Source: a virus
Virus record (IMG/VR): IMGVR_UViG_3300022074_000168
Span: 1-35,322 of that record
Direction: 5' to 3' (one strand)
Length of the DNA stretch: 35,322 nucleotides
The position numbers and the translations under genes were made by a program. Below, in pieces: positions 1,335 through 6,403 of this stretch. Under the pieces are notes generated by a model. That model was not told where the DNA came from. It saw nothing but the letters and a program-made list of their open reading frames with translations, and searched no databases. Position 1 is the first letter of the stretch. Each line of letters starts with the position of its first letter.

Positions 1335-1563
1335 TATCCTTCCCCTCTCTAAACGGAACCTCAACGCTCGCTATTGGCTCGTATCCCCGCATCAATTCTC
1401 TTGGCCAGATATCCACCTTCACGCCATTACCAACGCGCTGGACGTTCACCGTGAGGTTTCTCACGTCAATCCAAGTGGACGTGCCGAGTAACATATACTC
1501 ACGATCCTTCAGCACATCGTCGCGCTCGTTGTCTACATCTTCCACTGCCCGACCCCCACTCAA
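1312..1563 (-). CDS. Small phage protein, start uncertain
   Basis: 83 codons if the TTG at 1563 is used; it overlaps the previous stop. ATG at 1494 (60 residues, beginning MLLGTSTWIDV) has AAGGA upstream and matches the usual start of small phage proteins with a LGTSTWIDV opening, so the shorter form is quite possible. The middle (NLTVNVQRVGNGVKVDIWP) looks like a beta-strand pair. Function unknown. Confidence 0.55.
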   Translation of the reverse strand: MSGGRAVEDVDNERDDVLKDREYMLLGTSTWIDVRNLTVNVQRVGNGVKVDIWPRELMRGYEPIASVEVPFREGKDNDNAGGW

Positions 1564-2141
1564 AACGGAATCTCGTCGTCTAAATCATACTTCACCGGCT
1601 TGACGCTCTGAACCTCAGCACCGGCAAATGCGTTCTTTATAGCATCAACCACAGGTGCCTCTTTGTTCAACCCCTCAATGATCCGCCCTATCTCATCGAC
1701 AGAATACACCACCATCTCACGATTGTCGCGCTTTACCTTACCCGCCTCATAACCTGTCGCCGTTATCGCTATCACTTTGCCGTCAGGCATCCTGCCCTCA
1801 ACGTAATCACCGCTAAGAGGTTTCGCGCCAGCAGCTATGGCGGCAGCTTCTAACGCCGCCACACCACGCAACGTCACGTCAACCTCATGCTCAATCGACG
1901 GATCGCATTTATCTATCGCCGCATTGAGCCTATCCATCTGCTGCTCAAACCTGTCACGCAGCTCGCTGCTGCCACACACCCACACCAGACGGTCTACACC
2001 CCAACGCCCCTCAACCTCAGACACGACATCGTCATACCTGTGCAACGCGTCCTGCATCCGACGCATTGCTGGCTGAGTAGGTTGATAGTAAATCTTGCTA
2101 GGTTTCGGCCTCGGCCTCGTTGTCTTTTTAGTCGCCATCAT
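1560..2141 (-). CDS. Unknown protein with bacterial SSB-like C-terminal tip
   Basis: About 192 residues (ATG at 2141 or 2138; GAAGGGAAAAG upstream). The N-terminus is basic (KKTTRPRPKP), the middle is helical, and the protein ends in YDLDDEIPF. That ending closely matches the acidic-hydrophobic tip of bacterial SSB (E. coli ends DFDDDIPF), the docking peptide for SSB partners such as PriA, RecO, exonuclease I and the Pol III chi subunit. No OB-fold is recognisable. It lies directly after the primase-helicase. Inference: it may recruit or titrate host SSB-interacting proteins; the rest of the protein is unrecognised. Confidence 0.65.
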   Translation of the reverse strand: MMATKKTTRPRPKPSKIYYQPTQPAMRRMQDALHRYDDVVSEVEGRWGVDRLVWVCGSSELRDRFEQQMDRLNAAIDKCDPSIEHEVDVTLRGVAALEAAAIAAGAKPLSGDYVEGRMPDGKVIAITATGYEAGKVKRDNREMVVYSVDEIGRIIEGLNKEAPVVDAIKNAFAGAEVQSVKPVKYDLDDEIPF

Positions 2142-2262: not shown

Positions 2263-4110
2263 CTATTCCGCCAAGTTACTGTTAATCCAGCACTTATTGT
2301 CGTCTATAACCACCAGCCCCTTAGCCTGAAGCCCTCTCCGCGCCTGATAGCGCTGATCTGCCGTCGAATCAGGCGTATTTCGCTCATGTTTTGCCTTCCA
2401 ATCGTCGTAATGAACCTGCTTTTCGACGCGGTCTATGAGTAGGTTTTGCAGCGCCATAAATGCTATTTCCTGTGCGCCCTTCGACGGCCTGACCTTCTTT
2501 GCCTTCTTCTGTACGTCTCCAGAGACACGTTCCAGCACGACGGACGTGCCGGATATCATAGCCACCTCGGTCATACGAAACGCCTGATCGTCTACTGGAG
2601 TTGCGTCCTTTTGCTTTTCTACCCTGATCGTCACATATTCCTCATCCTTTGTGACGACCAGCGACGTATCAACGGCACCTAGCAAGGCTGACGAACCGCG
2701 CATGCCGTTTGCCACATTCTTGCCTGAGTGGTGAACACCGACAAACGCACACTTGCAATGCGACTTAATACTGTCGGCGGCTGCCACCCACAATCCCATT
2801 TCTTGGCTGGAATTTTCATCGGCCCCGACAAGCGATCTGGCGACGGTGTCGCAAAAGGCAATCGACCAGCCCGACCCAGCCTTATCAATAGACCGCATCA
2901 GCTTCTCGACTTCGGACTGATCTCTGAAGTTAACCGCGATTGGCAGGACGTGCAGATTGTCGTTAGTGCGGATGCCCTTATGCTGTTCCCACGCAGACAG
3001 CCTTTTCCCTATTCCTGCCAAGCCCTCGCCAACGATATATAAGACCTTGCCCATCTTGGTTGGCATGCCCTGCCATTCAACGCCGTTTGCGATAGACAGC
3101 GCCATATCCAGCGCGATAAACGACTTACCAGCCCCCGGTGCGCCGTAAAGCACGGTCAGGCCATTCTCGGTTATGATTCCGTCGTCACCCTCACCGATAG
3201 CCCACTCAATCGGCGGCATATTGCGTATGTAGTCAGCGCCGACAAATTCAAAATAGTCTAGGCCGTCACCCTCAACCTCAACCGCTTCCGCCTCAACCGC
3301 CGGAGCCTCAGCCACGGTAGACGCAGCCTTAACCGCTGCCGTCAAATCTTCTAAGCCCTTGCCGCTGTCGAGCCAATCGACAACATCGCCCTTGGCCGGT
3401 AGGCCGTCCAGCTCCACCCGCTTTACCATCTTGGCAACGCCAAACAGATTGCCGATCACGATATCCGCATGTTCACGCCCTGCGTCGTCATTGTCAGCAA
3501 GCACCACGACATTGCGCCCAGCAAAATACTGGTTCAATACCGGCTGCCACTTCTTTGCACCGCCGTGCGACGTTGTGGCGACTAGCCCCAGCTTAGTCAG
3601 TCGCTGTGCCGCCTTCTCGCCTTCCACAATAAATATTGGCGCGTCAGGGTTGGTGATTATGTGGTGCAGATTATACGGCAGCGCCTCGACGCCATCCATA
3701 TTAAAGAGCCACCCGCCCTTACCATCTGGCCGACACTGCCTAAACGTCTTCGGCTCAAACCGCCTGACCTGATAGCGCACCTCACCCTGATCGTCGATAT
3801 AGTCATAGACCGCTGACATAAACCGCGCTGGCTGTAACGACTGCTGCGCCTGACGCTGTATGCCGAATTTGCGCTCTAGTATCTCGGGGATGTTGCTGGC
3901 GATTGTGGCACCCTCATTCATCCGCACCAAATCCACACAGCCACCGCCCTCGTTTGTCTCAAAGTCAAACCAAGTGCCTTTGCCCAGATGCACCTCGCGC
4001 GAACCGCGATTGCCAAACCGCAGCGTCCGGCCTTTTTGCGACAGCTTCATGTTGGGTTCGCCCCAATAGTGCCTCGCTATTTGCTCAATGTGAGCCGATA
4101 TATTTGTCAT
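2263..4110 (-). CDS. Primase-helicase (TOPRIM plus RepA-like ATPase)
   Basis: About 615 residues from ATG 4110, with AAAGGG 7 nt upstream. N-terminal primase-like region with a degenerate zinc-type segment (FDFETNEGGGCVDL). TOPRIM domain: glutamate in FIVEGEKAA near 163 and DNDDAGREH near 207. Then an acidic linker (270-290) and a RecA-type ATPase of the RepA/AAA_25 class: Walker A GAPGAGKS near 324, a probable Walker B in WSIAFCDTVARS and GVHHSGKN downstream. The C-terminus (about 550-615) resembles a winged helix. It probably primes and unwinds phage DNA. No DNA polymerase is encoded in the window, so it would have to work with the host polymerase. Confidence 0.85.
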   Translation of the reverse strand: MTNISAHIEQIARHYWGEPNMKLSQKGRTLRFGNRGSREVHLGKGTWFDFETNEGGGCVDLVRMNEGATIASNIPEILERKFGIQRQAQQSLQPARFMSAVYDYIDDQGEVRYQVRRFEPKTFRQCRPDGKGGWLFNMDGVEALPYNLHHIITNPDAPIFIVEGEKAAQRLTKLGLVATTSHGGAKKWQPVLNQYFAGRNVVVLADNDDAGREHADIVIGNLFGVAKMVKRVELDGLPAKGDVVDWLDSGKGLEDLTAAVKAASTVAEAPAVEAEAVEVEGDGLDYFEFVGADYIRNMPPIEWAIGEGDDGIITENGLTVLYGAPGAGKSFIALDMALSIANGVEWQGMPTKMGKVLYIVGEGLAGIGKRLSAWEQHKGIRTNDNLHVLPIAVNFRDQSEVEKLMRSIDKAGSGWSIAFCDTVARSLVGADENSSQEMGLWVAAADSIKSHCKCAFVGVHHSGKNVANGMRGSSALLGAVDTSLVVTKDEEYVTIRVEKQKDATPVDDQAFRMTEVAMISGTSVVLERVSGDVQKKAKKVRPSKGAQEIAFMALQNLLIDRVEKQVHYDDWKAKHERNTPDSTADQRYQARRGLQAKGLVVIDDNKCWINSNLAE

Positions 4111-4150
4111 CACTAAACCCTTTCCTCACCCTTTGCCCCTTTAGAAAAGC

Positions 4151-4204: not shown

Positions 4205-4846
4205 TTAAAACAGGTCGCTGCCCGCCACTGGAGCCGCCGAGGTGGCAACGGCTTCCATTGCAGGCGCTGACACTGTCGGCGCAGGTTCTTGCGATGCAGC
4301 AGCACCGTCTAGGGTCGCCGGACGGTCAACCCAACCGCTAATGACCATCACCGGCTTCTTAAAAGTCAGCTCACCGTTGGGTGTGTTCACCTTGTAACGC
4401 TCAGAGCCGGTAAACTCTACCACCGGCACCTTACCCGCATTGTCAGCCTTTTGAGCCTCAAACGCATTATGCAAGTCATTGAACGGCACAGTCATTGTCT
4501 TTGCGCCGCTAGAAAGCTCACGCAGCCCCAGCTCCTTGTTGCAGAGCTTGACCTGAAACCCCTGATTGTGGTCAGGGCTTGGACGTGCTGGCATTGGCTC
4601 ACCAATGTTGACCAAGTGGAAGTCTGGCGCACCACCAACAAAGCCAAGCCAGCCGACTTTGATGTTCTCCAAGTCCATCGCAACCTTGACCGGATACTCC
4701 AGCTCGGATTCATCTTTAACCCAAGTGCCGCCCTCATCTTGATGCCGGTCAACCTTAATGATGTAACCACCACGCGTGTCATATTTCAAAATCGGCACGA
4801 TTGCTGAACCGTCACCGCCATTTTCATTTACAAAACCTAAAGCCAT
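4205..4846 (-). CDS. Putative single-stranded DNA-binding protein
   Basis: 213 residues; AAGGAAAAGTTAA precedes ATG. Features of a family seen beside phage helicases in alphaproteobacterial phages: N-terminal IVPILKYDTRGGYI, then VAMDLENIKVGWLGF, PDFHLV, EPMPARPSPDHNQGFQVKL, and VVEFTGSERYKV with VMVISGWVDRPATL near the end. The mixed beta pattern would fit an OB-like fold. The tail is low-complexity Ala/Pro/Ser and ends GSDLF, an acidic-aromatic tip like those of phage and bacterial SSBs. The SSB role is inferred from this tail and from the position directly before the primase-helicase. Confidence 0.55.
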   Translation of the reverse strand: MALGFVNENGGDGSAIVPILKYDTRGGYIIKVDRHQDEGGTWVKDESELEYPVKVAMDLENIKVGWLGFVGGAPDFHLVNIGEPMPARPSPDHNQGFQVKLCNKELGLRELSSGAKTMTVPFNDLHNAFEAQKADNAGKVPVVEFTGSERYKVNTPNGELTFKKPVMVISGWVDRPATLDGAAASQEPAPTVSAPAMEAVATSAAPVAGSDLF

Positions 4847-4875: not shown

Positions 4876-5304
4876 TCAAAATTGGCTCACAACCGTGAAC
4901 CCCTCAATTGGATAGTAGGCGCAAACGTCACGATCTTGTGGATCACCTCGATCTGACCTACCACCAATATTGACAGAGAACTCGCTGGCGAAATTTATCC
5001 TCACCAATGCGTCCTTGTACAATACGATAAAATACGACGGCAAATTTGTGCAAGCGCTAATGTCATGCGCCTTGACCACCTTAGCCAAGGATATCATCGC
5101 CGTAGGGTACTTATTCATCTCAACCGTTCTGGCCTTCAACTCAGCAAAGCCCACAACCTTGTCTAACTCATCCTCAATAATGGCGAAGTCGAGCTTGTAT
5201 TGGAGCGGCAACTTCACCAGCGTGTAGCCCTTCTCCGCCAGCAACTCAGCCACACGCTGTTCGTTGTTGCGGTCGGCTTGTGTCTCATACATTGGCCTAG
5301 CCAT
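4876..5304 (-). CDS. PD-(D/E)XK nuclease-like protein
   Basis: 142 residues. Around residues 36-60 it reads YKLDFAIIEDELDKVVGFAE then LKART: an aspartate (D39) followed by E-x-K (E55, K57), the core of the PD-(D/E)XK nuclease fold. The following MISLAKVVKAHDI and YFIVLYKDALVRINF fit the alpha-beta continuation of VRR-NUC or resolvase-like enzymes. It overlaps the end of the cytosine methyltransferase by 8 nt. Possible roles are debranching of replication intermediates or a partner of the methyltransferase; neither is shown. Confidence 0.55.
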   Translation of the reverse strand: MARPMYETQADRNNEQRVAELLAEKGYTLVKLPLQYKLDFAIIEDELDKVVGFAELKARTVEMNKYPTAMISLAKVVKAHDISACTNLPSYFIVLYKDALVRINFASEFSVNIGGRSDRGDPQDRDVCAYYPIEGFTVVSQF

Positions 5305-6403
5305 TGTGCGCCTCTTTGATAGCCCACAATATCCGCGCCGCCACTTGCGGCACGATGCTATTACCTAGCTGTCTAAGTCTGTGTACCCGACCGGATACCC
5401 CATTAGCCACTCGACCCACGCTGGGTTCAGGCTCCCACCAACGGCATTGGGCAGGGTATCCTTCGGATTGCCCTTGCGCTCCTGCCTGCCCTTGCCCGAC
5501 ATCCCCTTGTAATCCCTCGCCGCTGGCGTTGGGTACATCTTTACATCCTGACGCAAATCCCGACCCGCGTTTTTTCTGTTTGGGTTCCCCGCTGAAGACC
5601 CCTGCGCGATTGCTGCTGTCGGCGTTGCCCACATTTTCGGCTCTTGCATCTGCACCGCCAATGATAGGGGTGTTCCGCCCTGCGAATATTTCTTTTTTCT
5701 CAGCCCTGTGTCGTCTGCTACCGGCGTGGGCCACATCTTCGGCTCCGCTACTTGATCCCTCAGATTGCTCGATCTCTTGCGCCTTCCTGTCAAGCTCTCT
5801 TTGTACGCGCCCGATATCCCTGCTGGCAGATGATCCATCGTGTTCGGCGTAGCCCATAACGGCTCGTTCCATCCGCTGTTCATTGATGGCGCTAACTGGT
5901 TCGCCTTCGCGGTCGGCGTATGCAATAATCCAGCACCTGTCTCGGCGGTGGTAGGCATCCGCGGCGACAGCCGGTATAACAAAGCATCTTGCTTGGTAAC
6001 CTTGATTTTCCAAGTCAGAAAGCACCTCGTCGAGGCCCATAGAGATGTGTCCAGCAACATTTTCTCCAATAACCCAAGTCGGCCTGACAGCTTGGATAAT
6101 TCTAAGCATTTCCGGCCAGAGGTGTCGGTCATCTTTATCGCCTCGTCTGACCCCGGCAAGCGAGAAGGGCTGGCAGGGGTATCCCCCGACAACGATGTCA
6201 ACCAATCCTCTAAATCTATCTGCGTCATTCGCTAACTCCCTCACGTCATCAATTATCTCTGTGTCAGGCCAGTGCTTACGCAATACCTTCTGCGCGTGTT
6301 TATCATACTCGCAAAACGCGACTGTCTCATAGCCACCCACAAGCTTTTCGCCAGCGTAGCTGAAGCCGCCAATGCCACTGAATAAGTCTAGCATCCTGAG
6401 CAT
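5297..6403 (-). CDS. dcm: DNA (cytosine-5)-methyltransferase
   Basis: 368 residues; GAGGG lies 8-9 nt before ATG. Motif I DLFSGIGGFS (6-15), motif IV GGYPCQPFS with catalytic C77, motif VI GENVAG (113-118), motif VIII RRDRCW (153-158) and motif X RLRQLGNSIVPQ near the C-terminus. It transfers a methyl group from SAM to cytosine C5, probably to shield phage DNA from host restriction. The central 165-335 region, where the target-recognition domain should be, is low-complexity with repeats of DVAHA, NVGNA and DVPNA. This region is also read in a second frame (see 5365-6228). The adjacent nuclease-like genes could form a modification or restriction pair, but no recognisable restriction enzyme is evident. 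Confidence 0.92.
   Translation of the reverse strand: MLRMLDLFSGIGGFSYAGEKLVGGYETVAFCEYDKHAQKVLRKHWPDTEIIDDVRELANDADRFRGLVDIVVGGYPCQPFSLAGVRRGDKDDRHLWPEMLRIIQAVRPTWVIGENVAGHISMGLDEVLSDLENQGYQARCFVIPAVAADAYHRRDRCWIIAYADREGEPVSAINEQRMERAVMGYAEHDGSSASRDIGRVQRELDRKAQEIEQSEGSSSGAEDVAHAGSRRHRAEKKEIFAGRNTPIIGGADARAENVGNADSSNRAGVFSGEPKQKKRGSGFASGCKDVPNASGEGLQGDVGQGQAGAQGQSEGYPAQCRWWEPEPSVGRVANGVSGRVHRLRQLGNSIVPQVAARILWAIKEAHNG
5365..6228 (-). CDS. Overlapping gene inside dcm, WxTP-repeat protein
   Basis: 287 codons on the same strand as dcm in a different frame, wholly inside it. It starts at an ATG with GGGAG 7 nt upstream. Visible signature: SGRKCLELSKLSGRL (38-52), CFLTWKIK (69-76), then a repeated aromatic-x-TP motif (HTPTA 103, LWATPN 124, MWPTPV 165, MWATPTA 199, MYPTPAARDYKG 231) and a C-terminus LNPAWVEWLMGYPVGYTDL. 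I recall similar WPTP-rich proteins ending NPxWVEWLMGxPxGWTDL next to, or overlapping, phage Dcm genes; this was not checked. The same bases spell DVAHA or NVGNA in the dcm frame. Function unknown; it might contribute to target recognition. Confidence 0.6.
   Translation of the reverse strand: MTQIDLEDWLTSLSGDTPASPSRLPGSDEAIKMTDTSGRKCLELSKLSGRLGLLEKMLLDTSLWASTRCFLTWKIKVTKQDALLYRLSPRMPTTAETGAGLLHTPTAKANQLAPSMNSGWNEPLWATPNTMDHLPAGISGAYKESLTGRRKRSSNLRDQVAEPKMWPTPVADDTGLRKKKYSQGGTPLSLAVQMQEPKMWATPTAAIAQGSSAGNPNRKNAGRDLRQDVKMYPTPAARDYKGMSGKGRQERKGNPKDTLPNAVGGSLNPAWVEWLMGYPVGYTDLDS

Follow-up and report, generated by a model that had tools for sequence, protein, structure and literature searches.

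An SSB-type C-terminal tip on a phage protein without a recognised OB-fold: candidate docking end of a two-protein phage SSB

Introduction

Bacteria use the C-terminal tip of the single-stranded DNA-binding protein (SSB) as a hub by which replication and repair enzymes are gathered on single-stranded DNA (ssDNA), and a free terminal Phe is thought necessary for this tip. The window analysed here, the whole stretch of 35,322 bases, is a virus record with terminase, portal, scaffold, head, tail and lysis genes. One of its proteins, here called F, ends KYDLDDEIPF (ORF 1560-2141, minus strand) and thus carries the Pro-Phe-ending, acidic-hydrophobic C-terminal tip of bacterial SSBs. What is such a tip doing on a protein with no recognised OB-fold? 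A sequence-only reading had suggested that a phage with no polymerase in view could use it to hijack host proteins. We considered the following features:

1560..2141, minus strand: F, 193-aa non-OB protein with an SSB-type tip (ORF, relatives, model)
1563..1586, minus strand: codons of the tip DLDDEIPF of F (sequence, conservation, host match)
2263..4113, minus strand: H, primase-helicase with an AAA_25 domain, between S and F (Pfam and PHROG matches)
4205..4846, minus strand: S, probable phage OB-fold SSB of an unnamed family with a disordered tail (model, VIA list, alignment)
4208..4222, minus strand: codons of the tip GSDLF of S, acidic-aromatic without Pro (sequence)

H and S lie upstream of F in the same direction, and the two neighbours are as first described, a primase-helicase and a protein ending in GSDLF. 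The statement that no polymerase is in view also holds, in that none was recognised among the 29 window ORFs compared with PHROGs (nine at E<=1, twenty at E<=0.001). The best PHROG of H is named 'DNA polymerase/primase', and the match sits in the C-terminal AAA part of H; its Toprim-like matches are weak.

Sequence and predicted fold of F

The real start of F is probably Met2 (2138), because relatives vary at codon 1 (V, I or M) and keep M at codon 2. F has no convincing family match in Pfam, PHROG or NCBIfam and no SSB match in Pfam or NCBIfam; the Pfam matches are weak (phiKZ_IP at 0.038, and others) and inconsistent among members. The bacterial SSB model TIGR00621 has no match in the window record (the control was positive in 10 of 14 genomes), F has no sequence match to the Gp2.5-like phage SSBs (PHROG 112), and searching PDB sequences with the F and S profiles gave no convincing match.

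Structure prediction bore out the earlier statement that F lacks a recognised OB-fold. The AlphaFold2 model, built from 15 sequences (mean pLDDT 73.6, pTM 0.51), consists of a helical bundle (residues 23-103, mostly pLDDT 80-93) and a small beta-beta-alpha-beta-alpha part of moderate confidence (113-161, pLDDT about 55-75), with a disordered tip and no OB barrel. Foldseek of the model against the PDB returned nothing at E<=0.001. A VIA search found helical-bundle look-alikes only, the best of them a DnaK model (Z 7.5, rmsd 3.7, 81 aligned), and these were discounted because the arrangement is a common one. Of 13 matches in BFVD at E<=1.3e-6 none was informatively named, one being labelled 'terminase small subunit'. 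On the sequence searches and the model we rejected both an SSB identity for F and a distant OB-fold relationship.

A second phage SSB of a new fold, bearing its tip as any SSB does, would account for the basic N-terminus of F (KKTTRPRPKPSK) and for its position in the module. However, the SSB slot is already filled by S or by Gp2.5-like proteins, and no ssDNA-binding fold was recognised in F, so that we regard this explanation as highly improbable.

The tip of F belongs to the same end class as that of bacterial SSBs (E. coli DFDDDIPF) and is likewise at the C-terminus. In bacterial SSBs, however, it follows a long Gly-rich linker on an OB-fold protein, whereas in F the distance from the conserved body to the end is 11-22 residues (161 tip-bearing forms) and the long disordered SSB-type linker is absent.

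Conservation of the tip and its likeness to host SSBs

We called a tip canonical when the protein ends (I/L/V/M/A)-P-(F/W) and its last eight residues include two or more acidic ones. The first scan returned 70 viral relatives of F, with an SSB tip in 68 of the 68 whose C-terminus could be read, a count biased by the tip itself being among the six search patterns. Later F scans used tail-free alignments, and most F bodies were gathered in this way. Conservation in homologues had been set beforehand as one of the points on which the idea might fail; of 227 distinct homologues whose C-terminus is visible, 161 have the canonical tip. Within these 161, Pro at -2 and Phe or Trp at -1 are invariant by the selection rule; Asp is present at -5 in 157 forms (entropy 0.22 bits), and Asp or Asn at -6 in 155. 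The linker columns -8 to -16 are far more variable than the tip, at about 2.7-3.1 bits each. The tip codons vary synonymously (at -5, GAT 85 and GAC 72), and some F tips extend past the usual end (DIPWN, EIPFG, IPFFDR, LPFAMEGN).

The chance background was taken from 358 related loci. Once the F, S, H and Gp2.5-like families are set aside, none of 31,644 closed ORFs (20,272 distinct) has a canonical tip, these being ORFs of at least 50 aa in six frames and mostly non-genes. The tip is present in 251 of 355 F ORFs (150 of 213 distinct) and in 58 of 64 Gp2.5-like ORFs (35 of 39 distinct), and in 0/177 S ORFs and 0/309 H ORFs. Conservation of the F tip is well supported by these alignments and counts.

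The tip also resembles those of possible hosts. All 13 SSBs taken from plasmid records (11 alphaproteobacterial and 2 gammaproteobacterial) end (I/V)PF, and three of four Rhodobacterales SSBs end DDEIPF, although Rhodobacterales may not be the host of the window phage. The Haematobacter massiliensis SSB and F share their final eight residues, DLDDEIPF, and the original assignment of YDLDDEIPF as an SSB-type tail is therefore upheld.

Relatives of F occur in Roseobacter phages CRP-831, 823, 821, 822 and 811, in an uncultured phage genome and in a Caenibius plasmid; a scan with a Caenibius-type seed gave 3 loci. Searches of the phage collection found no record with the window F as query and six with a divergent F member. 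Bacterial genomes gave no F with the window protein as query and one locus with a profile, on a contig of an Opitutae MAG binned as Verrucomicrobiota (L072). This contig has a complete S-H-F module and its F ends NDELPF; it may be misbinned phage, because that end is unlike those of the SSBs of the same MAG (DDDDVPF, LDEDVPF).

The neighbouring protein S as a probable phage SSB

S is 213 aa long and ends GSDLF. Modelled from 40 sequences (pLDDT 82.8), it is rich in beta strands, has a single long helix and ends in a disordered tail of pLDDT <50. The VIA list for S is headed by 9teh_I, an integrase-RDF fusion (Z 7.9, rmsd 4.5, 144 aligned), followed by the T4 gp32 core 1gpc (Z 4.7, rmsd 4.2, 120 aligned), both middling scores, and lower down by RPA, SSBs and other OB-fold proteins. 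Foldseek of the model gave nothing at E<=0.001. Neither Pfam nor PHROGs nor NCBIfam offers a convincing match to the family; its weak PHROG match is named nucleotidyltransferase. Judging from the model, the most likely identity of S is an OB-fold SSB of the phage itself whose tip is non-canonical. Among 118 distinct forms, 108 have Phe as the last residue, in ends such as ..DLF or ..DEF and never ..PF, and none has Pro at -2. An S-seeded scan confirmed 319 candidate viral stretches with the family, while scans of phage records with two divergent S types gave 0 and 1 records.

In several loci (L069, L070, L082-L085, L087, L088) the primase-helicase also ends in an S-like manner (..SDDLF, ..EDDLF, ..DADLF, ..PQDLF), and acidic-aromatic ends are found there on up to three adjacent proteins.

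Placement of the tip in the module

In some relatives the SSB slot is occupied by a Gp2.5-like SSB (PHROG 112; E 7.9e-16 in L245, 3.5e-17 in L150). SSBs of this T7 gp2.5 and Enc34 ORF6 type (PHROG 112, PF10991) thus take the same module slot as S and bear a canonical tip in these relatives; F, in contrast, is not an SSB, and the SSB of the window (S) is of another family and ends GSDLF.

The tip of F varies with the type of SSB beside it. In S-type loci (114 distinct F) the tip is canonical on F in 108 and on S in none. Five of the remaining six F have near or extended tips (SDPIPF in L152, GDQIPF in L349, EDEIPFG in L340 and L341, DGLPFAMEGN in L153); the frame of the L079 F is broken and its second piece ends DDEIPF. 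In Gp2.5-like loci (42 distinct F) the tip is canonical on F in none and on the SSB in 39, the other three SSB tips having four or five extra residues (DDEIPFMMEWR, GDEIPFDFAA, DDEIPWIMEWR). Where no SSB was seen (71 distinct F), 53 F have a tip and 18 have none, and in 59 F lies <=2.5 kb from the start of the locus. Among the loci of the 227 F bodies, none has a canonical tip on both F and the SSB.

Loci from L262 on were fetched after the idea had formed and were seeded from the Gp2.5-like clade and its kin, so that the absence of the F tip in 33 of 33 Gp2.5-like loci among them is not independent. In the larger Gp2.5-like clade, the tip-less F often ends DLEDDFDFLSDGVIE or similar (L245, L246, L260), an internal stretch that resembles S-type tips with an extension.

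The S-seeded scan was blind to F, although some of its contigs overlap with earlier loci. Among its 49 distinct S bodies none has a canonical tip; F was found in 27 of the 49 loci and had the tip in all 27, terminal in 23 and with one extra Asn in four (L388, L400, L402, L414). In 20 of the 22 loci without F, less than 2 kb follows S. The contig of L419 begins at S, and F precedes S in L430, its near twin, which leaves L380, with S and 3.6 kb beyond it and no F, as the one real candidate exception. In Roseobacter phage CRP-406, the Gp2.5-like SSB ends MDFDDEIPF and a profile search (run without a positive control) found no F.

These placements bear on the hijacking proposal. Its view of the tip as host-type and conserved stands. 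Since F keeps the tip only where the SSB is without one, a free-standing hijacker seems a less apt description than an SSB made of two proteins, whose absent docking end F would carry.

Evolutionary switches

We built a tree of 67 F bodies with the tails left out. On this tree (INDEPENDENCE) the SSB type changes twice and the tip state twice, both together. Most Gp2.5-like loci fall in one clade. The tip-less Roseobacter phage row groups with the tip-bearing L336 and L338 (support 99), and the second tip-less F group is a separate supported clade. A single clade of all Gp2.5-like rows was rejected (AU p 9.3e-5; 66 rows, L152 left out, tested after the tree had been seen). By this phylogeny, the switch of SSB type and tip occurred twice independently. 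A sign test on the two switch pairs gives p 0.5, since two pairs cannot reach significance, and the exclusivity of the tip between F and the SSB is suggestive, not proven, given just two independent switches.

It follows that the exclusivity might be an accident of two lineages, with the tip of F functional and its absence in Gp2.5-like modules an unrelated divergence. There are just two switches, each on a branch of notable length, as such an accident would have it. However, in both cases the SSB acquired a canonical tip at the same switch, the S-seeded scan points the same way (27/27), and CRP-406 has a tipped SSB and no F found; we think an accident unlikely.

Proposed function

We lean towards the explanation that F supplies in trans the host-docking tip absent from the phage SSB. 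In this scenario F would be a replication-module protein working with S, in phages some of which infect Roseobacter (Alphaproteobacteria). S would coat the phage ssDNA, and its own end lacks the Pro-Phe by which host SSB partners recognise a tip. The globular part of F would join the S-ssDNA or helicase complex, and its LDDEIPF-type tip, mimicking that of the host SSB, could dock chi of polymerase III, PriA, RecO or RecG, whereby a polymerase-less phage would recruit the host replisome. We infer both the host partner of the tip and the F-SSB complex. The tip would be a movable element, carried on either F or the SSB, and a tip-less F beside a tipped Gp2.5-like SSB is expected, because one tip per module would suffice. 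Since F is retained without a tip in Gp2.5-like modules, it must have a further function.

Published work is consistent with parts of this scheme. Loss of the last Phe of the SSB tip, or a change of Pro to Ser, weakens partner binding, and an Arg of RecG was modelled near the terminal carboxyl of the tip (PMC10164576); given the weak binding of these mutants, the Pro-less tips of S should be poor host ligands. Some related roseophage subgroups have no polymerase gene and are thought to depend on host machinery; recognition of an SSB gene was mostly confined to two of the subgroups (PMC12629253), as would be expected if S-type SSBs escape recognition.

The wider claim is that in a large phage group the ssDNA-coating domain and the host-docking tip of an SSB are split between separate proteins, and that the tip has moved between them at least twice, with one tip per module; we consider the chances of this about even.

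The main rival to host docking is a reader encoded by the phage itself, be it H, a nuclease or S, with the tip serving assembly of the phage's own replisome. H adjoins F in almost every locus and matches RadB weakly. The SSB tail NDYPPF of HK620 acts on the phage's own Sak4 (PMC5928155); this is likewise a phage-encoded SSB-type tip in phage DNA metabolism, though unlike in F it is on the SSB itself and its partner is a phage protein. The T7-type SSB tail, too, has been implicated in contacting the polymerase and the primase-helicase of the phage (PMC5686142). Against a phage reader, the F tip keeps the host consensus, to the point of identity with a Rhodobacterales SSB, and stays host-like across very diverse F bodies, whereas the end of S, also beside H, has drifted to another form. 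We consider a phage-encoded reader fairly unlikely on balance.

F might also act as a decoy or in counter-defence, titrating host nucleases, restart proteins or SSB-sensing defence proteins off the host SSB. A host-identical tip on a protein that by its model is not an SSB would suit this role. However, it would leave unexplained both the loss of the F tip exactly beside a tipped phage SSB and the tie of F to the replication module, in which the order S-H-F is found in 111 of 114 S loci; we regard it as quite improbable. In L195, L217 and L221 F precedes S and H, yet its tip is retained.

If F does supply the docking end, an SSB tip works detached from the OB-fold, F offers a natural means of recruiting host SSB partners or blocking them, and the tips of F and of the SSB should be interchangeable. 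A function would also be proposed for two protein families that are blank in current libraries. One parallel is an engineered PriB-SSBc chimera (PMC8509808), in which an SSB tail sits on a protein naturally without one and alters the work of that protein; the chimera is artificial, and PriB resembles SSB in structure. By title and abstract, a literature search turned up no account of a phage protein that lacks an OB-fold and bears an SSB tip; all preprints, and most papers under subscription, were outside its scope.

Overlapping methyltransferase frames

Elsewhere in the window, a frame at 5365-6228 (minus strand) is nested within another at 5297-6403 (minus strand), an 864-base same-strand overlap in which both frames look coding. 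They are a C5 methylase (PF00145, E 3.9e-38) and a 287-aa frame like PHROG 1008 'DNA methyltransferase' (E 1e-33). The 287-aa frame has similar sequences in 71 phage records, several of which annotate two methyltransferase features under the match.
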